DNA from: a virus
IMG/VR virus record: IMGVR_UViG_3300048025_000047
Coordinates: 1-42,105 of that record
Direction: 5' to 3' (one strand)
DNA length: 42,105 nt
Made by a program: the position numbers and the translations under genes. Each line of letters starts with the position of its first letter. Position 1 is the first letter of the stretch. The notes under the pieces were generated by a model, which was not told where the DNA came from, did not search any database, and saw nothing but the letters and a program-made list of their open reading frames with translations. Shown here one piece after another: positions 2,773 through 30,234 of the stretch.

Positions 2773-2870
2773 TGGATCTAGAGATGTTGAGTATATTTCT
2801 TCAGACACTCACTGTAGTGGGTGTGTTCGTAAATACCGGTATAAATATTGTATATCGTATGAAAAAGTAA
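2772..2870 (+). CDS. Small membrane protein, 32 residues, end of the lysis cassette
   Basis: The ATG overlaps the holin stop (TAATG) and the frame runs to TAA at 2868-2870. The peptide MDLEMLSIFLQTLTVVGVFV and the following residues give one hydrophobic segment and a basic end (YRMKK). It is the last ORF before the terminator at 2882. I recognise no family; the coupling and the membrane-like composition make it plausible. Confidence 0.5.
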   Translation: MDLEMLSIFLQTLTVVGVFVNTGINIVYRMKK

Positions 2871-2881
2871 TTATTAGCTGT

Positions 2882-2917
2882 AACACTGGTCAGGCTTAGG
2901 TTTGATCGGTGTTTTTT
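2882..2917 (+). terminator. Rho-independent terminator after the lysis genes
   Basis: The arms CACTGGTC (2884-2891) and GATCGGTG (2904-2911) pair over 8 bp with two G-U pairs. The flanking AA and TT extend the stem, and six T residues follow (2912-2917). The loop is 12 bases. It lies 12 bases after the last lysis ORF and ends the tail-array and lysis transcript, separating it from the lysogeny region. Confidence 0.8.
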
Positions 2918-2918
2918 C

Positions 2919-2941
2919 GACTTATGTCCACCCTTATACAA
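2919..2941 (+). promoter_or_regulatory. Candidate phage RNA polymerase promoter, degenerate copy
   Basis: The core TGTCCACCCTTA is shared exactly with the copy at 17857, but the upstream part reads GACTTA instead of GAATAC and the start region lacks GGAGA. It lies two bases beyond the T-tract of the terminator and faces the attP and early genes. It may be a weaker promoter for 3148 onward, or a decayed one. See the entries at 6363, 8880 and 17857 for the family. Confidence 0.45.
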
Positions 2942-3016
2942 AATAAATGCATTAGAGGTCTTGATTATTGACGAAAGATCGATTAGTTTAATCATGTGAA
3001 CTGCTTTTTGGGTTAA

Positions 3017-3062
3017 CAACGGATTTACAGTCTGCTGCCTTTAACCACTCGGCCACCCCACC
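3017..3062 (-). other. attP: attP candidate: 5' half of a tRNA-Tyr(GUA) gene
   Basis: Read on the minus strand from 3062, the sequence is a tRNA from its first base: acceptor strand GGTGGGG, TG, D-arm GCC-GAGTGGTTAAA-GGC, then the anticodon arm with loop CTGTAAA (anticodon GUA, tyrosine) and TCCGT. The anticodon stem has one A-C mismatch, and after about 3017 nothing resembles a variable arm, T-loop or CCA. It is therefore a half tRNA, not a gene. Tyrosine recombinases commonly integrate at tRNA genes using such identity segments, and an integrase lies 1.6 kb downstream, so this is the likely attachment core. Which half the phage restores is unusual: here it is the 5' half. Confidence 0.75.
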
Positions 3063-3147
3063 TAGGGTTACTCCTAGTTAATCTCAGGGGGTCTTTTAAA
3101 ACAATCAGTAAGTTCTCGCAAGTTAAATTTTACTTAAGGAGAACAAA

Positions 3148-4524: not shown

Positions 4525-4679
4525 TGAAACAATCAAACGATTACAATTTACTGATACAGGCATTAGCAAAAGCAAAGTCAGGTCTAGCTAAAAAAGGAAT
4601 TATTAATGCACCTCTTGAAGAGGCATGGTTTTTAGCAGGGTGTCTCCTTAAAGAAGCTAACAAAAAGGAGGCAAACTAA
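4524..4679 (+). CDS. Hypothetical small protein, 51 residues
   Basis: The short ORF starts at the ATG overlapping the previous stop and ends with TAA overlapping the integrase ATG at 4679. The predicted peptide is mainly helical, with LLIQALAKAKSGLAKKG and EEAWFLAGCLLKEANKKEA. AAGGAGG near its 3' end serves as the ribosome binding site of the integrase. No family is recognised. The double coupling between two real genes supports it. Confidence 0.6.
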   Translation: MKQSNDYNLLIQALAKAKSGLAKKGIINAPLEEAWFLAGCLLKEANKKEAN

Positions 4680-5497
4680 TGCAAACATTTAAGCAGTTCT
4701 TCATGTCTAATGCCGATGAATTATGGAGTGGTCGTCACAGAGACCAAACCGTGAATAAACTCATGATGTTTAGCAACTATAAACACTATGGTTCTAAGGC
4801 CTTAGACGACTTCTCAGCGATGGAAATCTCAGACTTCCTATCCTTCATTAAGGTCAATAGAAGGCTCTCAGAGACGACTATAAACCGATACAAGGCTGCT
4901 ATAAAGGCAGTCTTTAGTTATGCCATGGATCTAGAGCTGATTACCTCAGCTCCTAAGATCAAAATGAAGGCTGAAAACAACGGCAGACCAAGGTCATTCA
5001 CACCTGACGAGCTAGTGAAGATCAAGGCATTTTTCAGTAAGTCTAAGCAACCTAAGATCCAGTACTTGGTGACACTATCCGAGCAGACCGGTATGAGACT
5101 TGGTGAGTTACTTGAGATAGGCACAACTGCCTTTGTATCTGCTGATCAGAAGTGGCTTAAGTTAGTTGACACCAAGAATGGTGATGACCGTGAGGTACCT
5201 CTAACATCCACCACCCTAGACTGTATCAAGAAGGTGGGTGTCGTTAAGGACTGGTTCAGCCACAGAACATTCTACGACCTATGGGATGAGTGTAGGTTCA
5301 GAATAGCACCTAGAGATAAGAACTTTGTATTTCACGTTTTAAGACATACTTGTGCATCTAAGTTAGCAAATGACTTTCAAGTTAATACTTTAGTCATTGC
5401 TGACATGTTGGGTCATAGGTCTATTAAGACGACACAGAAATACGTCCACGTTAACCAAAATACTAAACAGTCTGTTGCTAAGTTATTAGCACAGTAA
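4679..5497 (+). CDS. int: Tyrosine recombinase (phage integrase)
   Basis: This 272-residue enzyme should catalyse site-specific integration and excision through a covalent 3'-phosphotyrosine intermediate. The N-terminal SAM-like core-binding domain (residues about 1-90) contains FLSFIKVNRRLSETTINRYKAAIKAVF. The catalytic domain shows the complete set: Arg140 in TGMRLGE, Lys166 in DTKNGDD, His219 and Arg222 in HVLRH, His246 in LGHRS and nucleophile Tyr255 in KYVHVN. It lacks an extended arm-binding domain, so it is of the short type. The tRNA-Tyr fragment upstream is the likely attP. Position before the RNA polymerase gene matches temperate T7-like podoviruses of marine bacteria. AAGGAGG lies just upstream of the ATG. 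Confidence 0.95.
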   Translation: MQTFKQFFMSNADELWSGRHRDQTVNKLMMFSNYKHYGSKALDDFSAMEISDFLSFIKVNRRLSETTINRYKAAIKAVFSYAMDLELITSAPKIKMKAENNGRPRSFTPDELVKIKAFFSKSKQPKIQYLVTLSEQTGMRLGELLEIGTTAFVSADQKWLKLVDTKNGDDREVPLTSTTLDCIKKVGVVKDWFSHRTFYDLWDECRFRIAPRDKNFVFHVLRHTCASKLANDFQVNTLVIADMLGHRSIKTTQKYVHVNQNTKQSVAKLLAQ

Positions 5498-6362: not shown

Positions 6363-6385
6363 GAATACTGTCCACCCATTAGAGA
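6363..6385 (+). promoter_or_regulatory. Candidate T7-type phage promoter upstream of the RNA polymerase gene
   Basis: The 23-base site begins GAATACTGTCCACCC and ends ATTAGAGA. Laid without gaps on the T7 class III promoter it matches at AATAC (-16 to -12), CAC (-7 to -5) and GAGA (+3 to +6), 12 of 23 bases. The same 15-base core recurs at 8880 and 17857, always in a non-coding gap and on the + strand. Transcription would start about 30 bases before the polymerase gene, giving positive autoregulation. Confidence 0.75.
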
Positions 6386-6409: not shown

Positions 6410-8878
6410 GTGAGTACAATTAGAGAACTACAAAGAGAAAGACAAATGATCTCAGAAGGCCGTGATCGTTATGTCAAAAGATCAGAGAAAATAACAACCA
6501 CCTCAATACAAAATAACCCTCAGAAACTTATATCAGAAGTTCAGACTATAGTAGCTAAAGATCTTAAGAAGACTATAGATGAATCAAAGAACAAAGGTGT
6601 AGGACAACCAACAAGTTGGCTTAAGTATTTAGTCGATGTAGATGTCGATATAGTTAGTTATGTCGGTTTGGTGTCGATGTTTGATGCAGTAGGTCGTAAT
6701 CAAACACTTACTAGAGCAGTCTCAACCATAGGTCAGAAGATTGAGATGGAAGTCTTTAACATAAAGTTAAAACAGTTTAACAAGAAGTTAGCTAATAGAA
6801 TTGAAACTAAAGTCACTCAAGATCACTCAAGTGAACGTCATAGGATAAAAGCTGCTAAGTCTATAGCTGCTAAAGCAGGTTTTGAGTATGAGAAGTGGGA
6901 TGACAAGAGAAGGGTTATTGTCGGTACACCTATTCTCAATTCGATACTCAGGGTCTCAGGTATCTTTGACGTATGGCAGACAACCATTAAAAACAAGACA
7001 CTGAAGAAGATAGGTTTATTACCTGAGGCATCGTTAAGACTATCCGAGTTAGACTTCGATGAGAGTTGGTCTAGTCCACTGTTTGCACCTATGACAGTAA
7101 AGCCTAAAGACTGGACTTCTTTCGATACCGGTTGCTACATTGACGAGGCTCTTTCTCAGCAGGTAAAACTAGTCAAAGGATATGTTGCTAATGCCCATAT
7201 AAAGGCCATAGAGCATGGGTTTGAGAAGGGTTCCATACAACCTAGCATAGATGCTTTAAATGCCGTTCAGAGGACTCCTATGAAGCTCAATGAAATTATA
7301 GTTGAGGCAGTGGAATGGTGTTGGGTAAATGATAAATCCATGGGTAAGTTTCCAACTAGGGCATACATTGAGAAACCTGACAAAGTTGACGACTTTGATA
7401 CCCTTACTGATGAACAGAAAAAGGGTATTAGGCTTAAGAATAAGAATATTGTCGTTAAAAACAGACAGATTGACGGTCAAAGGTCAGTCATGGTTCAAGA
7501 CCTTAAAGTTGCTAAAGAACTTATGGAGTACGACCAATTCTATTTACCTCATAACTTCTGCCACCGTGGACGTATCTATCCGATACCTCACTTCTCCCAC
7601 CACCGTGACGAACACATAAAGGCTATGTTTGAGTTTGCTAATGAAAAGAAGGTCGATGACAAGGCATTTTATTGGATAGCCATACAAGTGGCCAATACTG
7701 GTGACTTTGACAAGGTATCTAAGAAACCTATGTTAGATAGGATCAAGTGGGTTAATGATAATGCTGAGATGATAATCGAGGTAGCTCAGGACTATAAGTC
7801 AACTTTTGACTATTGGTCTCAAGCAGATAAACCATTTAGCTTTCTAGCTGCATGTCAGGCCTACTTCAAGTACTTAGTCGAGGGTGAAGGATCTACAAGT
7901 GGACTACCTATATCACTAGACGGTAGTAACAGTGGTATCCAACATTATTCAGCAGCTAGTAAACAGGAGAGAGATGGATCATTGGTTAACCTAGTGCCAA
8001 ACTCTATGCCTCAGGATGTTTATCAGGAGGTTGCCGATGCAGTATCAAAGGTGTTTACATCTAGTGATGACAAGATGGCTAGAGACTGGCTTAAGTTTGG
8101 TGTTAACCGTAAGCTAGTCAAACGTAACGTCATGACATTTGGTTACTCAAGTGAAGTCTTTGGATTTAAAGATCAAATCATTGAAGACACTATGAGACCT
8201 TTAGCTGACGATGTACTAGCAGGTAAATACGACCAACACCCATTCGGTGACGATCAGGGATTTACTGCAGCTAACTACTTGGCAAAGGCAAACTGGAAGG
8301 CAGTCAACCAAGTGATAACAGGTGCCTCTGAAGGCATGAAGTTCTTTAAGACTTTAGCTAGGTTACTAGCTCATGAGAATAAGCACATGAGGTGGACGAC
8401 ACCTGTTGGCTTTCCTGTTGTACAAAGTTACACGAAGTTTACCACCAAGGAGATCAAGGTTTACCTTTATGACAGAACCTTGTTTAAGAATGTCCGTAGT
8501 CAAATATCACTACGAGACAGACCACTTAGGACTGTTGATAAGGCTAAGTCAGCCTCGGCAGTATCACCTAACGTGATTCACTCAATGGATGCAGCTCACT
8601 TACTGTTGACTGTTTTAAATGGATTACAGAAGAATATACAAGATTATTTCCTGATCCATGACAGTTTTGCAACCACTGCTGCAGACACTCAAAAACTGTA
8701 TGAAATCATCAGAAGTTCCTTCATTGAGATTTATGATAACTTTTGCCTTTATCAGACGGTTTTAAATCACAACATAAAACAGTTTGAGGATGCCTCTAAG
8801 GTAGACCTGCCCTCAATTCCCAAGAAGGGCAAACTTGTTTTAAGCGACATAAAAGACAGTCGATATTGCTTTTGTTAG
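6410..8878 (+). CDS. T7-type single-subunit DNA-directed RNA polymerase
   Basis: An 822-residue enzyme (T7: 883) that should transcribe phage genes from its own promoters. Key elements are present: the FCHRGRIYP segment (T7 WRGRVY), motif A with metal ligand Asp504 in LDGSNSGIQHYSA, motif B with Lys571 and Tyr579 in KRNVMTFGYSS (the same 8-residue spacing as T7 Lys631/Tyr639), and motif C with Asp751 in IHDSF. The C-terminus is aromatic (YCFC) but is not the T7 FAFA. The start is GTG at 6410 after AAGGAG, which lowers initiation and may matter in a temperate phage. A candidate cognate promoter lies 25 bases upstream and another directly after the stop. Confidence 0.97.
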   Translation: MSTIRELQRERQMISEGRDRYVKRSEKITTTSIQNNPQKLISEVQTIVAKDLKKTIDESKNKGVGQPTSWLKYLVDVDVDIVSYVGLVSMFDAVGRNQTLTRAVSTIGQKIEMEVFNIKLKQFNKKLANRIETKVTQDHSSERHRIKAAKSIAAKAGFEYEKWDDKRRVIVGTPILNSILRVSGIFDVWQTTIKNKTLKKIGLLPEASLRLSELDFDESWSSPLFAPMTVKPKDWTSFDTGCYIDEALSQQVKLVKGYVANAHIKAIEHGFEKGSIQPSIDALNAVQRTPMKLNEIIVEAVEWCWVNDKSMGKFPTRAYIEKPDKVDDFDTLTDEQKKGIRLKNKNIVVKNRQIDGQRSVMVQDLKVAKELMEYDQFYLPHNFCHRGRIYPIPHFSHHRDEHIKAMFEFANEKKVDDKAFYWIAIQVANTGDFDKVSKKPMLDRIKWVNDNAEMIIEVAQDYKSTFDYWSQADKPFSFLAACQAYFKYLVEGEGSTSGLPISLDGSNSGIQHYSAASKQERDGSLVNLVPNSMPQDVYQEVADAVSKVFTSSDDKMARDWLKFGVNRKLVKRNVMTFGYSSEVFGFKDQIIEDTMRPLADDVLAGKYDQHPFGDDQGFTAANYLAKANWKAVNQVITGASEGMKFFKTLARLLAHENKHMRWTTPVGFPVVQSYTKFTTKEIKVYLYDRTLFKNVRSQISLRDRPLRTVDKAKSASAVSPNVIHSMDAAHLLLTVLNGLQKNIQDYFLIHDSFATTAADTQKLYEIIRSSFIEIYDNFCLYQTVLNHNIKQFEDASKVDLPSIPKKGKLVLSDIKDSRYCFC

Positions 8879-15265: not shown

Positions 15266-15546
15266 GACATATGGAGTTCATGAAAGCCATGGCTAAACAG
15301 GAAAAGATAATAACCAAACCACCTCATTACGAGGTCTTCAAGATAGAGCCAGTCAGCTTCATCATGAAGAACGGTCTGTCCTTTTGGAAGGGCAACATCA
15401 TTAAGTACGTCATGAGGGCAGGTCTTAAGACCTATGACAACCAAGACGAAACACAATCAGAAATAACCGATCTACAAAAGGCAGTCAGGTACTGCGAGAT
15501 GAGGATCAATCAGCTAGAGGGAAAAGAACCAAATGCAATTAGATAA
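15262..15546 (+). CDS. DUF3310 family protein (SaV-like nucleotide kinase-associated)
   Basis: A 94-residue protein with the DUF3310 signature: KPPHYEVFKIEPVSFIM, then LSFWKGNIIKYVMRAG, then DLQKAVRYCEMRINQLEG. The family is widespread in phages and sits with nucleotide metabolism genes; some members are annotated as nucleotide-kinase related, but the activity is not settled. Here it precedes the ribonucleotide reductase and overlaps it by 14 bases, consistent with a nucleotide-supply operon. Confidence 0.85.
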   Translation: MRHMEFMKAMAKQEKIITKPPHYEVFKIEPVSFIMKNGLSFWKGNIIKYVMRAGLKTYDNQDETQSEITDLQKAVRYCEMRINQLEGKEPNAIR

Positions 15547-17455
15547 TTACTTACCGTCACTGTATCAGCAGTTCATACATCTATCACGTTACTCACGGTG
15601 GTTACCTGAGGAACAACGTAGGGAGAACTGGGGTGAGACAGTAGACAGGTACTTCAACTTCTTTAAAGAACACCTCGTGGAGCAGCATAGTTTTTCCGTG
15701 CCTCCTTCTACTATGCAAGAGCTTCATGAGGCCGTTATGAACTTAAGTGTTATGCCGTCAATGAGGTGTCTAATGACAGCAGGTGAAGCACTTAAGAAGG
15801 AAAACATAGCAGGTTATAATTGTAGCTATGTAGCTGTAAATAGACTGGGTGCATTCGATGAAATACTGTATGTACTAATGAATGGCACTGGTGTCGGCTT
15901 TAGTGTCGAAAGACAGAATGTAAACAAGCTACCGGTTGTTGCTGAGAGCTTCTACAACAGCGATACAGTGATAACAGTTAAGGACAGTAAGCTAGGTTGG
16001 GCAAAGGCCTACAAGGAGCTTATAGGACTGTTATACATAGGTCAGATACCTGAGTGGAACACCAGTCTTGTAAGACCTGCAGGTTCACCACTGAAGACAT
16101 TCGGTGGTAGGGCATCAGGAGCTGCACCACTGGAGAACTTATTTAACTTTACTGTACAGGTAATTAAGAATGCTGCAGGTCGTAAGTTAAACTCAGTGGA
16201 GTGCCATGACATTGTATGTAAGATAGCCGAGGTAGTGGTTGTTGGTGGTGTAAGAAGGTCAGCACTAATCAGTCTGTCTAACCTATCTGACGACAGAATG
16301 AGACACGCTAAGTCAGGTGAATGGTGGAATGCTAACAAGCAGCGAGCCTTAGCTAACAACTCAGCAGTCTACACTGAGAAGCCTGACATAGGTATCTTTA
16401 TGGATGAGTGGAAGTCCTTATATGAATCTAAGTCAGGTGAACGTGGTATCTTCAACAGACAGTCAGCTAACAACATGGCTGAGGCCTCAGGTCGCAGAGT
16501 GATCGACAACCACGAGTTTGGAACTAACCCCTGCTCTGAGATCATATTAAGAGACCGTGAGTTCTGTAACTTAAGTGAGGTAGTTATTCGTCCTCATGAT
16601 ACAAAAGAGACACTACTAAACAAGGTACGACTGGCTACCATCATAGGTACAATACAGTCGTCATTGACTAACTTCAGGTATGTCTCCAGTGAATGGAGAA
16701 AGAACTGTGAAGAGGAAAGACTGCTTGGTGTGTCGTTAACCGGTATCATGGATAACGACTTGACTAACGGTAACAAGTCAGGACTTGACCTATTACTACA
16801 GGAGCTTAAGGAAGAGGCTGTAAAGACTAACGCTGAGTTTGCTAAGGATATAGGCATACCTCAGTCAGTAGCCATTACATGTGTCAAGCCATCAGGTACA
16901 GTTAGTCAGTTGGTTGATGCTGCCTCAGGTATTCACGCTAGGCACAACCCCTACTACATAAGAACAGTCAGAGGTGATAAGAAGGATCCACTGACTAAGC
17001 TGATGGTTGACCAAGGCATACCTGCTGAGGACGATGTGATGAACCCTGACAACACTACAGTCTTTAGCTTTCCTATGGAGGCACCAAGTAATGCAGTCTT
17101 CAGGACAGATAAGACAGCTATACAACAGCTAGAGCTGTGGCTCATGTATCAGAAGAACTGGTGTGAACATAAGCCATCAGTCACTGTGTCAGTGAAGGAG
17201 CATGAGTGGTTGGATGTAGGTGCTTGGGTATACGACAACTTCGATTACATGTCAGGTGTGTCGTTCCTACCCTTCAGTGACCATACATACCAACAGGCAC
17301 CCTATCAGGACTGTGATCAGTCTGAGTATGACATCATGTCTCAGGCTATGCCTAAGGACATCGACTGGTCTAAGCTAAGTGAGTATGAACAACAGGACAA
17401 CACCATAGGATCACAGGAGTTAGCCTGTGTCGGTGGAGCCTGTGAGATCGTATGA
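15533..17455 (+). CDS. nrdJ: Ribonucleotide reductase, class II (adenosylcobalamin-dependent)
   Basis: A 640-residue monomeric-type class II enzyme reducing ribonucleotides to deoxyribonucleotides with a B12-generated radical. Visible residues: Cys97 in GYNCSYV and Cys345 in EFCNLSEV (redox pair), thiyl Cys334 with Glu336 in NPCSEI, phosphate-binding VKPSGTVSQLVDAASGIH, and a C-terminal Cys632/Cys637 pair (CVGGAC) that relays electrons from thioredoxin. NPCSEI and the lack of a partner NrdB gene separate it from class I. It needs cobalamin, so its activity depends on the host's B12 supply. B12-type reductases are a mark of several marine podovirus groups. It overlaps DUF3310 upstream and DUF1289 downstream. 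Confidence 0.95.
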   Translation: MQLDNYLPSLYQQFIHLSRYSRWLPEEQRRENWGETVDRYFNFFKEHLVEQHSFSVPPSTMQELHEAVMNLSVMPSMRCLMTAGEALKKENIAGYNCSYVAVNRLGAFDEILYVLMNGTGVGFSVERQNVNKLPVVAESFYNSDTVITVKDSKLGWAKAYKELIGLLYIGQIPEWNTSLVRPAGSPLKTFGGRASGAAPLENLFNFTVQVIKNAAGRKLNSVECHDIVCKIAEVVVVGGVRRSALISLSNLSDDRMRHAKSGEWWNANKQRALANNSAVYTEKPDIGIFMDEWKSLYESKSGERGIFNRQSANNMAEASGRRVIDNHEFGTNPCSEIILRDREFCNLSEVVIRPHDTKETLLNKVRLATIIGTIQSSLTNFRYVSSEWRKNCEEERLLGVSLTGIMDNDLTNGNKSGLDLLLQELKEEAVKTNAEFAKDIGIPQSVAITCVKPSGTVSQLVDAASGIHARHNPYYIRTVRGDKKDPLTKLMVDQGIPAEDDVMNPDNTTVFSFPMEAPSNAVFRTDKTAIQQLELWLMYQKNWCEHKPSVTVSVKEHEWLDVGAWVYDNFDYMSGVSFLPFSDHTYQQAPYQDCDQSEYDIMSQAMPKDIDWSKLSEYEQQDNTIGSQELACVGGACEIV

Positions 17456-17688
17456 CTATGCTATCACCATGTAAAAACGTATGCAGACTGGACACCAAGA
17501 ACGATAGGTGTTCAGCCTGTTATAGGACTACATTTGAGATCAGTAGATGGTCACAGATGGAGACACAGGAACGACAGGCCTTAGTCTATCAGGTGATACC
17601 TCGAAGGAGATTACAGGCTGAGATGGAACTCTTGGGTGATACTAAAGCATCCAGTGACGATAACGTGAGGGTTCTATCGGATACATAA
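17452..17688 (+). CDS. DUF1289 family protein
   Basis: A 78-residue protein with the family signature SPCKNVCRLDTKNDRCSACYRTTFEISRW: four cysteines in a C-x3-C ... C-x2-C arrangement, presumably a metal or Fe-S site, followed by the conserved Arg-Thr and Trp. DUF1289 proteins are short bacterial proteins of unknown function; a phage copy next to ribonucleotide reductase might serve redox supply, which is inference. The start overlaps the reductase stop (ATGA). It is the last gene before the long non-coding gap. Confidence 0.85.
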   Translation: MTMLSPCKNVCRLDTKNDRCSACYRTTFEISRWSQMETQERQALVYQVIPRRRLQAEMELLGDTKASSDDNVRVLSDT

Positions 17689-17696
17689 GTAAAGGT

Positions 17697-17764
17697 GTGA
17701 ACTGTCAGAATGCCAACTATAGTTGTAGCATCAAGGCTAACACAGGCTATCTCTAACAGTTCAC
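17697..17764. other. Structured element: long stem enclosing a 12-base palindrome
   Basis: GTGAACTGT (17697-17705) pairs perfectly with ACAGTTCAC (17756-17764); a T-G and a G-C pair extend it outward. Inside the 50-base loop lies the perfect palindrome CAACTATAGTTG (17714-17725), flanked by TGC and GCA that can also pair. There is no T-tract after it, so it is not a standard terminator. It starts eight bases after the DUF1289 stop. It could protect the 3' end of the replication transcript, or be a protein-binding site. Confidence 0.55.
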
Positions 17765-17802
17765 GCTTACTAATGTATACTATTGTAACAGGTTATCAAG
17801 GG

Positions 17803-17831
17803 GTCACTAATGTCGTGTCACTAGACACTAA
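17803..17831. repeat. Three short direct repeats GNCACTA
   Basis: GTCACTA occurs at 17803-17809 and 17817-17823 and GACACTA at 17825-17831, about 26 bases upstream of the phage promoter. Closely spaced short repeats of this sort could be operator or replication-initiator sites. With seven-base units chance is possible. Confidence 0.3.
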
Positions 17832-17856
17832 TTGATACTTTAGTTAACTATAGGTT

Positions 17857-17879
17857 GAATACTGTCCACCCTTAGGAGA
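17857..17879 (+). promoter_or_regulatory. Candidate T7-type phage promoter for the structural genes
   Basis: The best copy of the family: GAATACTGTCCACCC followed by TTAGGAGA. Without gaps it matches the T7 class III promoter at 14 of 23 positions, including AATAC, CAC and GGAGA at the start. It faces the structural genes, the first of which begins 375 bases downstream, leaving a long untranslated leader. Confidence 0.8.
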
Positions 17880-17907
17880 GATCAGGAGTGAATGAGGGAT
17901 ATGTGTG

Positions 17908-17925
17908 TGTATCAGTGGTGATACA
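17908..17925. other. Hairpin in the late leader
   Basis: TGTATCA (17908-17914) and TGATACA (17919-17925) pair perfectly around a GTGG tetraloop, about 30 bases after the presumed transcription start of the 17857 promoter. In T7, similar leader hairpins are RNase III sites or stabilise 5' ends. No T-tract follows, so it is not a terminator. Confidence 0.45.
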
Positions 17926-17947
17926 TGGGTTAACTAGAGATAGAACT

Positions 17948-17978
17948 ATAGGGAATGAGTAAGTGAGATCCCTATTTT
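17948..17978 (+). terminator. Weak terminator-like or attenuator hairpin
   Basis: ATAGGGA (17948-17954) pairs with TCCCTAT (17969-17975) over 7 bp with a 14-base loop, followed by only four T residues counting the last of the stem. It lies downstream of the late promoter and upstream of the structural genes, so complete termination would be harmful; attenuation, host-polymerase termination or RNA stability are possible. Confidence 0.35.
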
Positions 17979-18199
17979 CAACGACCTTAAATATACCCCT
18001 TACGAATAAATTTCACTTAATGTCTAATGTCTTAAGATACATAGGTAGTATATCGTAATCAGATAACTAGTCTGTTGACCTAAGATAACTATAGATATCA
18101 AGTACTTAGCATGTATTGTCGTTTAATTTTGGTACCATACCTCAGATTTTAGACCCCCATACCCTTAATAATACAATCAATTTCAAAAAGTCGTTAAAG

Positions 18200-18246
18200 C
18201 CTTCTTGTTGTTGTTATTGTTGTTCGACCTTTTAGATAAGAGAAGG
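18200..18246 (+). promoter_or_regulatory. Possible Shine-Dalgarno-masking hairpin before the S74 fibre gene
   Basis: CCTTCT (18200-18205) is the complement of AGAAGG (18241-18246), which contains the ribosome binding site nine bases before ATG 18255. The loop between is rich in TTG/TTA repeats and probably unstructured. Pairing would hide the site and reduce translation. The stem is only 6 bp over a 35-base loop. Confidence 0.25.
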
Positions 18247-18254
18247 AAAATCCC

Positions 18255-19046
18255 ATGGCCTTAGAAAGTGCAACCTATATCAATGGATTAGTGTCTACTA
18301 ACCCAACGTCCACCGATGCCCTAGCACAGGCAGACGACCACCTTCGTCTAATCAAGACTACCATTAAAGCTACGTTCCCTAATGTAACCGGTGCTGTCAC
18401 AGCAACCCACACTCAGTTAAACCAAGACCCTACATCCCTACTGGACTCTAACGGTGCCACTCGTGTGGCTGCCAGTACGACAGGTGCCTCGGTGACTGGT
18501 AACCTTGCGATATCAGGTGACATATCCTTAAGTGGATCAGGCCTGACTTTGGGTACCCATACAGCAGGTAACTATGTGGCAGGTATAACTGGTGGTACTG
18601 GCGTTACAGTAGCCAACTCAGGATCCGAGGGTGCAACCCCTACAGTATCTATAGGCCAAGCCGTGGCAACCTCAGACACGGTGACGTTTGCCGAGGTAAG
18701 ATCCACTGGCAACGTGACAGCCTACTATTCAGACATGAGACTTAAGACCGACATCCAACCCATTGAAGGAGCCTTAGACAAGGTAATGACACTCAATGGG
18801 TTTTACTTCAGACCTAATGCGATAGCTCAAGATTACGGTTATGAAGATAAGGTGGAGGTAGGGGTCTCTGCTCAGGACGTAGAAGCTATCATGCCTGAGA
18901 TAATAGCTGAGGCTCCTATCGACCCTGAGTATATGACGGTACACTATGAGAAACTAGCACCGTTACTTATCGAGGCCATTAAGGATCTTAAGAAACAACT
19001 AGACACACATGTACAGGGATGCAGTTGCAATGGCTATCCAGTCTAG
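18255..19046 (+). CDS. Tail fibre or spike protein with C-terminal S74 chaperone
   Basis: A 263-residue structural protein. The N-terminal part (ESATYINGLVSTNPTSTDAL onward) resembles the attachment region of marine phage fibres; the middle (residues 75-145) is Thr/Gly/Ser-rich beta structure. The C-terminal domain, from SDMRLKTDIQPIEGALDKV, is a peptidase S74 intramolecular chaperone: it trimerises the fibre and cuts itself off, with Ser159 in the YYSDMRLK motif as the expected nucleophile. It ends in a coiled coil (LIEAIKDLKKQLDTH). It is the first structural gene after the gap and overlaps the next gene by 17 bases. The fibre body is short for a receptor-binding shaft. Confidence 0.85.
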   Translation: MALESATYINGLVSTNPTSTDALAQADDHLRLIKTTIKATFPNVTGAVTATHTQLNQDPTSLLDSNGATRVAASTTGASVTGNLAISGDISLSGSGLTLGTHTAGNYVAGITGGTGVTVANSGSEGATPTVSIGQAVATSDTVTFAEVRSTGNVTAYYSDMRLKTDIQPIEGALDKVMTLNGFYFRPNAIAQDYGYEDKVEVGVSAQDVEAIMPEIIAEAPIDPEYMTVHYEKLAPLLIEAIKDLKKQLDTHVQGCSCNGYPV

Positions 19047-27100: not shown

Positions 27101-29759
27101 ACAAATAAGTTTAGTTAAAGATATTGAGGTTATTAGTGAGCAGATAACACAATCAAACTTTAACGAAGGTGACCCTATATTAGGCTCTGCTTTAGACCCA
27201 TTTGGTTTAGGTGACATGCTCGGTATTACTAGCGATGGTATTAGACCTACACCTGAAGAATTACAACAAATGCAAGATGGTACATTTAAACCTGAGAAGA
27301 AACAGTCATTAGTTGAGGCTTATGGTGGAATACAAAAGTTATGGGAAAAAGCCACAGGAAGAACAACACCATTTGAAAATACACCTGAGAATGTAGAAAT
27401 TATAGCTACTGCTATGGCTCATGAAGGTATTAAAAACATAGGTTTAGATGGTAACGCTATTGGATGGTATGACAGAAAGTTAAAAGCAGCTAAAGCTATT
27501 ATAAGTTCAATAGAGCCAAGGTATCAAGGTAATGAGGCAGCATTTGATTATGCTTTAGCCGTTACATCTAACGGTATCGCAGTTGCTGATAACTTTAATT
27601 ATGCTATGGAAGTATTTAGAGAGTTTCTAGACACAGGAAGAATGCCTGAAAACTTTGCTAAAGGTGGTGAAAGAACACAGGCAATGCAAAATGCTTTTAA
27701 ATTCTTTAATGCATGGAATAATCAGTATGGTGGTAGAGGTAATATGCCTCTTGAAGTATTTTTAGACATGGATTTTACAAGAAGGCAGTTACAAGAAGAA
27801 CTAAATGACTTTAACAAAGCAAATAACACTGACTTTAAATTATCAGCACAAGAAGGCTTAGATGAGGTTGTTAAAGGTAGTTACATACTTGGAGCTAAAA
27901 TAGGACAAGGGTTTTATCAAAACCTAAGAGGTAACTATGATCCTCTTACTATGGATATATGGTGGATGAGGATGTGGAACCGTATGGTTGGCCGACCATT
28001 TAAAGCACCTACGACAGATGCTAATCTTAAGAAGGCAAGAGATAAAGTTGAAAGTAGGATGAAAGACCCTAAGGCCTCAGCTTTAGAAAAACAGATCATT
28101 AAGAAAAGTTTAAAAGAGTTAGGTCTGAAAAGAGCAGGTTTATACAAAGACACTAAGAAATTTGATGCTTTTATTACACAACTTCACAAAAACTGGAACA
28201 GCTACTATAAAAACTTTCAAAAAACTAATAAAAAGAACCCACCTAAACCTCCATTCTTTAAAACTGTTGGAACTCATGTAAAGAATATCAATGAAGGTCT
28301 TATGGCAACACCATTTGATGCTAAAGAACGTAGTTACATGAGGTCAGTAACTGCTAGAGCTATTGAGTTAATGAGAGAAAAAGGTTATAACATTAAGACA
28401 GCCGATTATCAGGCACTTATGTGGTTTCCTGAAAAACAGTTAGCTAGAAAGCTAGGTATACAGCAGGGTCGTGGTGAAGATAACGATTATTTAGATGCAG
28501 CAATATTACTTGCACAATCAGAAGGATTAACAAATGACCAAATCAAAGAAACACTCCCCACAGCAGAACGAGGAGAGTTCGATGTTGGATCAGGTACCAT
28601 CGGACAAAATGCAGGACTTCGTTCAGAGAATGATGGCCTTAGCTCAGAGGAACTTAGCCGAGAAGAACCAATCCTCAACCTCCAGTCCAATTCTAACCAA
28701 CTCGGAAACAATCAACGATCAAGGGGAGCTAATAGCAATAGAACCCTTGAACCCACCCCTACGGAGGTAAGTTCTAAACTACCTGCAATTAAAAAAGCAT
28801 TTGAGGTAGGTAGAAAAGGATCACCACACGAAAACGGTCTAAATGTAACTGAGGCTTTACAGATAGCTAAAGCTATGGGTTATCTAATATATATGGCACC
28901 TACACAGGAATCTATGGAGGGTTTATATGGTAAGGAAATACCTCCTAATAGTGATTTGACTGGTTTTCATTCATCTTTTATGATGGGTCAAACACTAGAA
29001 CCACTTCATATTGTTATAAAAAAAGCACAATCACCTCAGGATGAAATAAGAGCTATATTCACTGCTTTTCATGAAATATCTCATGGTTTGGCTATGGGTG
29101 ATGGATCGACAGGTCAGCCTATTACTGAAATGGGATATGGTCGATTAGGTGTAAGTCCTAAAACTACTTATCGTGGTTCCGTTGAATCTGAATTAGCCGT
29201 AATACTTAATCGTATACATACAAAAGTACCTGATGCTAAATTAGGTCAAGACATAGCTAATGAAATGGTAAATATTAGGTTCTCACGTTTTGCATTTGAA
29301 GGTGCTAAAATAACACCTACTTTAAAAGGTGGCTCAATAGTTCCTAGAGATTCTTCGATGATGCAAGATATAAGAGATAGAGTTCAATTAAAAATGATTG
29401 AAGATGACTTTGGTAAAAATAGCCCTGAATACAATAGTGCCATTAGTAAACGAGTATCTAACATGCGAATAAGGGATAATTATCAACTAAACATATCAGA
29501 GATACTAGCAGATAGTATTGCTGCATATCTTGTAGATCCTAAAAAGTTTAAAGAGGAAGCTCCATTAACTGCTGAGTTCTTGAAAAATAGTTTAAACGAC
29601 AAACCTTCATCTAAGTTTGTTAAGTTCTACACTAATCCTATAGCAACAATCTTAGCAGTTCTTATGACGGCATTGGCTTTAGATGACCGTGAAGAAGAAC
29701 AACAGCCTCAGATGAGTGCAGGAGCCTTACAGCTCGGTCAGGGAGCCTTAAGTGCCTGA
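24198..29759 (+). CDS. Giant multi-domain internal virion protein (ejection protein with GNAT-like and zincin-like modules)
   Basis: An 1853-residue protein, the largest in the genome. It opens with QIGNDVYEIPDGTPQ. Two Gly/Ala-rich hydrophobic stretches (about residues 132-175 and 490-520) could insert into membranes, as in T7 ejectosome proteins. Q/N-rich linkers follow (560-840). Near residues 895-940 is a GNAT acetyltransferase-type motif, EEYQKQGIGGEL (Gln926, Gly929, Gly931). A Trp-rich segment, PLTMDIWWMRMWNRMVG, lies near residue 1250. At 1625-1629 is HEISH, with SEILADSIAAYL (Glu1768) as a possible third zinc ligand: a gluzincin-like peptidase. It would be injected with the DNA. Enzyme activities are inferred from motifs. 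No lytic transglycosylase is seen here. Confidence 0.85.
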   Translation: MAKYQIGNDVYEIPDGTPQATVTNIINDITLNMANQSNNQQQGTDNAFEFSVDQAQKLGGKGLEALGRLTGFKSVEDYGTGVVKQQEKDIAAGGYKPKYNKSFSDTFDEQGVGAAFEWIGEKVAENSVTTGASLVGAGATAVAALFSAPVAAVLGVGTLVGSAVLGTGEVAGEIEDKTGSYDPKVAVGVGAVIGFLDKFGAGKVIPKDQLAKMTVKQMAAKLHKSGYKQASKELIKRTLKKGGYEGITEGTQESLSMGASAASGGDYTAKEVKDRLIDSAVIGTSMGSGVSVGTDAVTGGVNTVRKVKDGVTSIFDKKTNEASDPEGATELANRLNTIATANDYNLQDLDKMSTKGARETVDKAHVQVTEELKQLGKDLKERLQISPTDELSVVIDKVLAQAGQREARNKTKNTVGQQEFEAIERLTGDTLEGQKMLSLMRQMNELTELHNGGYQQGLSKITDNFSPIGGGIGYDKGAINTEKVLRPIASGGAALSTGGASLLGQLGIVAGGRAIDKLRGVNKSVVDQYIQDNKDGDGIDLGNNPSLRQDAINKAKLAEQEAILAERQKLQQQQDLEALNAQLDQENAPPTPNSPQFTMEDATGLTKEQVEEVLKLIEQRPDLVVNINPELKKAIDEYRNSVRVGGKVSNLSELIRAVNVSVDANGIERTNPQNQSMMQQNQQGGGRPSYQNSPNYQRGIDDNRAFADELIEAVNNDTTLNVVDKPLLTQALLNLKKNLGSNPIETGTRIIEDLGARLKNPEAIQQYVVPYLERVTQQQPNQQNNVQIDEQLSPDHPQFNNGTRIGGNKRTPEEVAEFRKKMLKFRQDQATKNQKEIEAIENYISLVNPTGKRFNDRSDLWTLRLGDMEGMLPSGAETVSTIADNLAIEIKQNGNDFYAVHKTNGVVGYVLDKENYTDLQVVEEYQKQGIGGELQYQYRKNNPTAMTGGLSDAGLRSLQRTARRLINEQISLVKDIEVISEQITQSNFNEGDPILGSALDPFGLGDMLGITSDGIRPTPEELQQMQDGTFKPEKKQSLVEAYGGIQKLWEKATGRTTPFENTPENVEIIATAMAHEGIKNIGLDGNAIGWYDRKLKAAKAIISSIEPRYQGNEAAFDYALAVTSNGIAVADNFNYAMEVFREFLDTGRMPENFAKGGERTQAMQNAFKFFNAWNNQYGGRGNMPLEVFLDMDFTRRQLQEELNDFNKANNTDFKLSAQEGLDEVVKGSYILGAKIGQGFYQNLRGNYDPLTMDIWWMRMWNRMVGRPFKAPTTDANLKKARDKVESRMKDPKASALEKQIIKKSLKELGLKRAGLYKDTKKFDAFITQLHKNWNSYYKNFQKTNKKNPPKPPFFKTVGTHVKNINEGLMATPFDAKERSYMRSVTARAIELMREKGYNIKTADYQALMWFPEKQLARKLGIQQGRGEDNDYLDAAILLAQSEGLTNDQIKETLPTAERGEFDVGSGTIGQNAGLRSENDGLSSEELSREEPILNLQSNSNQLGNNQRSRGANSNRTLEPTPTEVSSKLPAIKKAFEVGRKGSPHENGLNVTEALQIAKAMGYLIYMAPTQESMEGLYGKEIPPNSDLTGFHSSFMMGQTLEPLHIVIKKAQSPQDEIRAIFTAFHEISHGLAMGDGSTGQPITEMGYGRLGVSPKTTYRGSVESELAVILNRIHTKVPDAKLGQDIANEMVNIRFSRFAFEGAKITPTLKGGSIVPRDSSMMQDIRDRVQLKMIEDDFGKNSPEYNSAISKRVSNMRIRDNYQLNISEILADSIAAYLVDPKKFKEEAPLTAEFLKNSLNDKPSSKFVKFYTNPIATILAVLMTALALDDREEEQQPQMSAGALQLGQGALSA
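28534..28770 (+). CDS. Possible overlapping ORF inside the giant protein gene
   Basis: A 78-residue frame, shifted +1 against the host gene, begins at ATG 28534 seven bases after AAGGA. It reads plausibly like protein (MLDQVPSDKMQDFVQRMMAL, then AQRNLAEKNQ), while the host frame in this segment is a low-complexity, hydrophilic stretch (residues about 1447-1525). It may be an overprinted gene, or mark a compensated double frameshift in which this frame was once the main one. It may also be chance. Confidence 0.25.
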   Translation: MTKSKKHSPQQNEESSMLDQVPSDKMQDFVQRMMALAQRNLAEKNQSSTSSPILTNSETINDQGELIAIEPLNPPLRR

Positions 29760-30234
29760 TCTTAGAAAGTTCAGAGCCAAGTCACCATCAAAAACTAGAT
29801 TTCCACAGAAGGCTCCTAAGAAAAACTACTTTTCAACATTGATGGAAACTGAAGAAGGTAGAGCATTACGAAAGTCGTGGTCTAACAAGAAGAAGATTAA
29901 CGGTGGTCGTCCAAGAGGGGTTCCTGACGGCTATAGAAAAGAGCAAATAGAACCCATACGAGCAAGAGAAAAAAGGAAAGCAGAGAGGTTAGTTAATATT
30001 ATGGCTGAAAAGTTTAACATTGAAGACGAATATGCAAAGAAAGCATTAGTGACAGCAGTCGAAGTTATGAATGTTGTCGGAGAAACAAGAGAGAGACTAG
30101 CTGCAGCAAGATTAGTATTAGACTTTACTAAACAGAAACCTGCATCAAAGAATGAAGTAGCCTTAACTAAAGCTGAAGACTTCTTAGCATCTCTTGTAAC
30201 GGACACAGATGGATCCACAACTAAAGAAGATTAG
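29752..30234 (+). CDS. terS: Terminase small subunit (putative)
   Basis: A 160-residue basic protein. The first half is Lys/Arg-rich (FRAKSPSKTRFPQK, RGVPDGYRKEQIEP), and the centre and end are helical (KFNIEDEYAKKALVTAVEVMNVVGETRERLAAARLVLD, quoted in part as ALVTAVEVMNVVGETRERL). This, and its position immediately before the large subunit with a 26-base overlap, suggest the small subunit that recognises packaging sites. It starts at GTG 29752 after GGGAG, overlapping the giant gene by eight bases. Identity rests on context more than motif. Confidence 0.7.
   Translation: MPDLRKFRAKSPSKTRFPQKAPKKNYFSTLMETEEGRALRKSWSNKKKINGGRPRGVPDGYRKEQIEPIRAREKRKAERLVNIMAEKFNIEDEYAKKALVTAVEVMNVVGETRERLAAARLVLDFTKQKPASKNEVALTKAEDFLASLVTDTDGSTTKED

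Follow-up and report, generated by a model that had tools for sequence, protein, structure and literature searches.

A noncoding gap (17689-18254) ahead of the structural genes of a virus contig, analyzed over its whole length of 42,105 bases (the window), is best explained, in our tentative judgment and at a little short of even confidence, as a late-operon control locus that combines a promoter with a pac-type packaging signal also used by satellites. The virus would be a temperate podovirus-like phage of SAR116 bacteria, whose own RNA polymerase would read a promoter at 17857-17879, itself preceded by a group-specific hairpin, with the late transcript starting there; the conserved 3' domain further downstream would act in cis as the DNA site where packaging by the phage terminase begins; and small tRNA-integrated satellites, in which the 3' domain occurs but neither the promoter nor any phage structural gene was detected, would be packaged by the phage. 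We take the element to be previously undescribed, a literature search with subscription journals mostly outside its coverage having returned no description of it, while a cis signal shared by phage and satellite is in itself of a known kind. The element offers a sequence handle by which a marine phage lineage not yet in culture can be tied to its likely hosts in the SAR116 order and to the numerous small mobile islands of those hosts. Should the 3' domain prove to be a packaging signal, one profile search would pair satellites with their helpers; the promoter motifs would allow transcription to be mapped in phages that have yet to be cultivated.

The gap and its conservation

The gap (Table 1) is the longest in the record and has no ORF of at least 50 aa; it is not strictly the only long one, as the sequence-only reading had it, since other gaps reach 375 nt (2773-3147). 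No tRNA or tmRNA was found in the window. Identity to relatives is 82-92% for the gap and 64-76% for third codon positions (of the ribonucleotide reductase or tail gene), and on these comparisons the gap is under purifying selection, evolving more slowly than third codon positions. The earlier supposition that so much noncoding DNA is kept for a reason is supported by the conservation of its position, its sequence, and some of its inverted repeats within a highly diverse phage lineage; the absence of conservation in relatives, which had been named as the finding that would speak against it, is clearly not what is seen. The likely answer is among the functions then listed (origin, pac site, attenuator, or non-coding RNA), between which no choice had been made; however, part of the evidence cited for them, namely the supposed promoter AACTATAGGGA, the masking of a ribosome-binding site, and a terminator, belongs to the non-conserved part of the gap, and both the TGTCCACCCTTAGGAGA block (17863-17879) and the 3' domain had been missed.

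Among the structures proposed from the sequence alone, the 5' stem is the only one kept in the alignment of 17 gaps from which our conservation counts are drawn. Its 9 bp pair GTGAACTGT (17697-17705) with ACAGTTCAC (17756-17764), and a block of seven pairs (GTGAACT/AGTTCAC) is invariant across the alignment. A stem of different sequence occupies the same place in other groups (e.g., TGACCTGGGA/TCCCAGGTCA in L155 and L163), comparable stems being seen by eye in L142, L150, and L062; the 5' hairpin domain was not seen in satellites. The palindrome CAACTATAGTTG (17714-17725) exists in the window but is not kept, most relatives having AACTATAAGTTG, and the hairpin TGTATCA-GTGG-TGATACA (17908-17925), also real, recurs in just 9 of the 17 gaps (one loop base free). 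The three GNCACTA repeats are present at 17803, 17817, and 17824. We rejected AACTATAGGGA (17944-17954), previously taken for the best phage promoter, given that it occurs in 8 of the 17 gaps and is absent from the rest of the genome, and likewise the leader thought to mask the first ribosome-binding site, both halves of which are conserved in just 5. The terminator-like stem was not recovered, a search for intrinsic terminators (a G+C-rich hairpin followed by a T run) giving 0 sites in 17600-18300. AACTATAG has four copies in the gap and none elsewhere on the + strand, at sites that are not conserved. A single global RNA fold was also discarded: the folding energy of the gap is ordinary (z = -1.23, with 16 of 100 shuffles at least as good), and the covariation term is ~0 in close relatives.

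Table 1. Features of the window, ordered by position
Feature	Position	Strand	Remarks
Contig IMGVR_UViG_3300048025_000047		+ (genes)	Virus contig, 42,105 bases
Candidate attP, 41-nt perfect copy of the 5' half of SAR116 tRNA-Tyr(gta)	3022..3062	-	Near integrase
Lysis genes		+	Before the integrase in the window gene order
Integrase	4679-5497	+	
Putative promoter copy GAATACTGTCCACCCATTAGAGA	6363..6385	+	Directly upstream of the RNA polymerase gene (6410)
Phage RNA polymerase (single-subunit)	6410..8878	+	PHROG 414, Pfam RNA_pol; presumed promoter user
Putative promoter copy GAATACTGTCCACCCATTGAGAA	8880..8902	+	Directly downstream of the RNA polymerase gene
SSB, endonuclease I, primase-helicase, MazG, DNA polymerase, exonuclease		+	In this order after the RNA polymerase gene
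Ribonucleotide reductase	15533-17455	+	
DUF1289 gene, 78 aa	17452-17688	+	Small protein; directly after ribonucleotide reductase, before the gap
5' hairpin domain	17697..17764	+	~68 nt, closed by arms 17697-17705 and 17756-17764; between upstream operon and promoter
Putative promoter for phage-encoded RNA polymerase, GAATACTGTCCACCCTTAGGAGA	17857..17879	+	From recurrence of the motif
G-rich, poorly conserved start of presumed leader	17880..17968	+	GC skew ~+0.65, then -0.47 just downstream
Conserved block TCCCTATTTT...CGAATAAATTTC, A+T-rich 3' side	17969..18020	+	Mean conservation 0.88-0.92 (17 gaps)
Inverted repeat HpA, CAGATAACTAGTCTG; family form CANNGATA-NNN-TATCNNTG	18060..18074	+	
Conserved ATCAANNNNTTAGC motif	18097..18110	+	Conservation 0.96 around the motif
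GGTA-CCA-TACC small inverted repeat and C run (GACCCCC)	18131..18158	+	
Core block TTCAAAAA..CNNTAAA..(TTG)n	18182..18228	+	Common to phages and satellites
Tail gene, first of the structural operon	18255..19046	+	PHROG tail families; follows the element in ~45 clusters
Other structural genes; terminase, portal, scaffold, capsid	30209 (terminase)	+	After the tail gene

A putative promoter for the phage RNA polymerase

From its recurrence we conclude that the GAATACTGTCCACCC motif (a 15-nt core) at 17857 would be a promoter of the phage RNA polymerase. The core is repeated at 6363 and 8880, flanking the polymerase gene, with a shorter form at 2925, in each case in an intergenic region and on the coding strand; the longer pattern has four matches in the genome against 0.43 expected, a number that 0 of 100 shuffles reach. 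The TGTCCACCCTTA block of the promoter is kept in all 17 aligned gaps, and the TGTCCACCCTTAGGAGA block lies within the GAATACTGTCCACCC motif; four further TGTCCACCCTTAGGAGA loci (L153, L160, L162, and L164) are apparent chance matches inside other genes. Likeness to T7 promoters was set aside as evidence, because a by-eye alignment agrees at 14 of 23 positions and chance alone yields up to 15 in windows taken from this genome; this resemblance not being significant, it is recurrence that carries the promoter reading.

Six other genomes repeat a motif, with copies adjoining the RNA polymerase gene and lying 312-404 nt ahead of the TTCAAAAA anchor, three of the six having different motifs (GGGTGTACACC in G006 and G007, TATGTCCCCCT in G010), with TGTCCACCC found in G001, G008, and G016; the copy by the polymerase gene of G008 is on the upstream side only. 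The motif thus changes with the polymerase between groups while its position is kept, which is clear in seven genomes including the window (G000, G001, G006, G007, G008, G010, and G016), six others having no clear motif and G002 being left out of the count. Transcription of the late operon is expected to begin near 17875, giving a predicted leader of ~380 nt. The place of its G-rich start (17880..17968) is taken in other groups by tandem repeats of ~10 bp (L142, L161, and others). Repeats of this length between the promoter region and the 3' domain were seen in L142, L155, L163, L041, L181, and L235, their sequence differing per phage group (e.g., GACATTGGTCT, GTGTCTAGA).

The 3' domain in phages and SAR116-order genomes

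The 3' domain comprises ~180 bases (about 18050-18230) downstream of the promoter. Its elements, together with those just upstream, follow a conserved order, viz., TCCCGATTTGTA, CCAATAAATTTC, (C)TAATGTC, CANNGATA-NNN-TATCNNTG, ATCAANNNNTTAGC, GGNNNCC, the C run, TTCAAAAA..CNNTAAA, and (TTG)n, in which TCCCGATTTGTA ... CCAATAAATTTC is the counterpart, in most other phage groups, of the block at 17969..18020. The core block is near-invariant in 58 aligned elements from phages and satellites (up to 0.99 in close relatives), the C run is present in 53 of them, and the ATCAANNNNTTAGC motif is also found in other phage groups and SAR116 satellites. In 40 of 48 clusters, HpA retains six or more of its nine Watson-Crick pairs, a level that 9.7% of shuffles reach, and pairs 4-7 show compensatory changes; its G-T and A-C mismatches on the + strand stand at 21:11 (p=0.11), a ratio by which RNA and DNA are not distinguishable.

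A degenerate pattern for the last conserved block recovered 107 stretches in viral contigs, which fall into ~48 clusters (<88% identity) once two chance matches are removed. The 3' domain precedes the first structural (tail) gene in the same orientation in nearly all of them (~45 divergent phage clusters), and of the 130 viral loci that match the pattern, 120 have the tail gene or its neighbor as well; five matches of the main pattern (L193, L205, L232, L252, and L259) lack phage-family genes and were taken as chance, and L250 is too short to judge. The replication genes of G009 and G011-G014 (DNA and RNA polymerase) are on the opposite strand, and their 3' domain keeps the orientation of the structural genes. 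Judged by gene order, the 3' domain goes with the structural and packaging module. No close isolated phage was found (best terminase match 39%), and the 3' domain was not detected in a collection of isolated phages at the sensitivities used, with no convincing element in the stretches searched of HMO-2011, CRP-4/403/804, CRP-7, LUZ24, HTVC106P, and two other records. The portal and tail N-terminus are related to those of LUZ24-like phages; Bruynoghevirus LUZ24 has a related tail protein N-terminus (64%), a similar portal (28-30%), and a 184-bp terminal repeat just upstream of its late operon. In contrast to the window, LUZ24 has no copy of the element in the region searched (34000-45625), and its late operon begins with terminase rather than a tail gene.

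A profile (R1) built from the 58 elements, which also recovers members left out of its building, matches in 39 of 136 SAR116-order genomes (E <= 0.001) and, at the stricter E <= 1e-5, in 8 of 385 genomes of a class-wide sample of Alphaproteobacteria; up to 11 matches occur in one SAR116-order genome, and copies are often a few kb apart. Clear copies turned up in SAR116, other Alphaproteobacteria, Burkholderia, and Massilia when bacterial genomes were scanned with the degenerate pattern; a search of viral contigs for an exact satellite core found none. Several copies belong to integrated islands: in L310, 76-nt tRNA-Val repeats surround an integrase, an AAA-like protein, and three elements; in L314, an 18-bp tRNA-Leu repeat bounds an island of 2.65 kb whose contents are the element and a single FG-GAP cargo gene; in L341, islands with integrases are arrayed in tandem at tRNA-Leu; in L346 and L344, the integrase 3' end and the element are repeated on both sides of cargo genes; L316 combines an integrase with a DUF3987/PriCT helicase-primase, with the element still present; and L312 has an integrase and a 126-aa ORF. 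Other chromosomal copies are near protease, DUF1501/DUF1800, adhesin-like, and D-ala ligase genes. An integrase is found within 5 kb of 9 of 27 elements (~1.4 expected from density); about two thirds of the chromosomal copies have none within that distance, so that satellite status is not established for every copy. The 20 kb upstream of satellite elements holds no copy of the phage promoter motifs, and no structural genes of the window family were found near the copies in L310, L312, L314, L315, and L316, the remaining islands being judged from gene lists only. L310, L341, L342, L343, L344, and L346 hold arrays of small islands, several linked to tRNA genes; integrases and cargo genes accompany elements that repeat at spacings of a few kb.

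The exact tRNA-Tyr 41-mer of the candidate attP occurs in 58 of the 136 SAR116-order genomes and in 5 of the 385 Alphaproteobacteria, three of these five being of the SAR116 order. One SAR116-order genome (G120) carries at tRNA-Lys an apparently intact prophage of the family (~39.9 kb; L370-L372, 380-440 kb), with 50-nt att repeats at 384647 and 424515, an integrase beside the latter, a terminase 78% identical to that of the window, and the element in its interior at 406303. This prophage and the tRNA-Tyr copy together indicate that phages of the window family are temperate, that the window phage probably infects SAR116 bacteria, and that the element does not serve as attP. It is correspondingly very improbable that the gap element is an attachment or recombination site of the integrase, even though 18 of 19 phage records with the element encode an integrase and the att repeat is ~100-170 nt from the element in L310, L312, L314, and L341: the tRNA identity of the window lies near its integrase, 14.6 kb from the element, and the att repeats of G120 are away from the element, which already contradicts this idea. 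The marks of an attP, i.e., a host tRNA identity by the integrase at which the prophage ends, are not those of the element.

Candidate functions of the 3' domain

Islands in which no late operon was detected, some with a replication protein of their own, keep the 3' domain and drop the promoter, a pattern that agrees most closely with packaging, less with an origin, and least of all with a late leader; we infer that packaging is the function shared by phage and satellite copies. The sharing of cos or pac signals by helper phages and satellites is an established rule (PMC11389934; also PMC10803314). Like the cos/pac signals of PICI, P4-type, and cfPICI satellites, the element is a short cis sequence common to a phage and to small integrase-bearing islands without detected phage structural genes; unlike them, it is far from the terminase genes and has its hosts in SAR116 and a few other proteobacteria. 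To our knowledge, its sequence is unrelated to any known cos/pac signal. In broad outline, the islands also resemble PICMIs, VEIMEs, and tycheposons in being small and marine and in carrying little apart from an integrase; PICMIs are next to fis in Vibrionaceae, whereas the present islands are at tRNA genes in SAR116-order genomes and carry the element. Packaging of PICMIs looks headful, and their pac site could not be identified (PMC10803314).

A main weakness of the packaging reading is the distance of the element from the terminase genes, which begin at ~29.7 kb, ~12 kb away, with a TerS candidate at 29752-30234. Pac sites are usually in or near terS, though not obligatorily so; the element is neither in nor next to a small terminase gene, being followed by the tail gene. 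Moreover, the compensatory changes in the inverted repeats and the mild G-T excess would fit an RNA too. As a structured RNA, the 3' domain would either form the late-transcript leader or be made separately, with a role in regulating late expression or in serving packaging in trans, and satellites would encode a copy. Its location downstream of the phage promoter means that it should be transcribed, the pairing of HpA is kept by compensatory changes, and the strongest covarying column pair of the 3' domain falls in the GGNNNCC repeat. We nonetheless consider this account unlikely: satellites lack both a phage promoter ahead of the 3' domain and a late operon on which it could act, the fold of the window is unremarkable, no consistent stem surrounds the TTG tract, and the highest conservation in the domain falls in sequence blocks, not in helices. 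No Rfam model matched the gap or the 3' domain above its curated threshold, which disposes of an adenosylcobalamin riboswitch or other known RNA, the sub-threshold matches of the window being to eukaryotic snoRNAs. The more specific proposal of an RNA made by phage and satellites alike, such as a packaging RNA or a satellite response to the helper, appears improbable to us; if true, it would represent a new phage RNA class across a large marine lineage.

A replication origin is somewhat more probable than a structured RNA, while still rather doubtful. On the model of the T7 primary origin, a transcript begun at the promoter by the phage RNA polymerase would reach into the A+T-rich 3' domain and serve the phage DNA polymerase as a primer, and the satellites' copy would let them be replicated by the phage. 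The genome encodes a T7-like RNA polymerase, a primase-helicase, and a DNA polymerase; the promoter is followed by a conserved A+T-rich stretch (28-35% G+C), as in a T7 origin; the skew switches from G-rich to C-rich; several groups have tandem repeats between the promoter and the 3' domain; and minimal islands without a recognized replication gene (L314 and L312) would need a helper origin. However, satellites keep the 3' domain without the promoter that a T7-type origin needs, L316 carries the element despite its own primase-helicase, and the orientation of the element follows the structural and not the replication genes. The resemblance to T7-type promoters and the primary origin consists in a short promoter of a single-subunit RNA polymerase in several intergenic regions, one of them followed by an A+T-rich stretch; the promoter sequence here is not significantly T7-like, and the 3' domain, in distinction to T7, is conserved and common to islands.

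As regards the mode of packaging, the large terminase subunit has a single, weak Pfam match (Terminase_6N, T4 type), which is compatible with headful packaging. The ends of contigs of >30 kb were discarded as a hint to DNA termini, as they do not cluster at the element; this would fit headful packaging and proves nothing. In another genome of the set (G017:C1:1046-2604), the large terminase subunit is matched as two overlapping frames, possibly a frameshift, a sequencing error, or a split gene.
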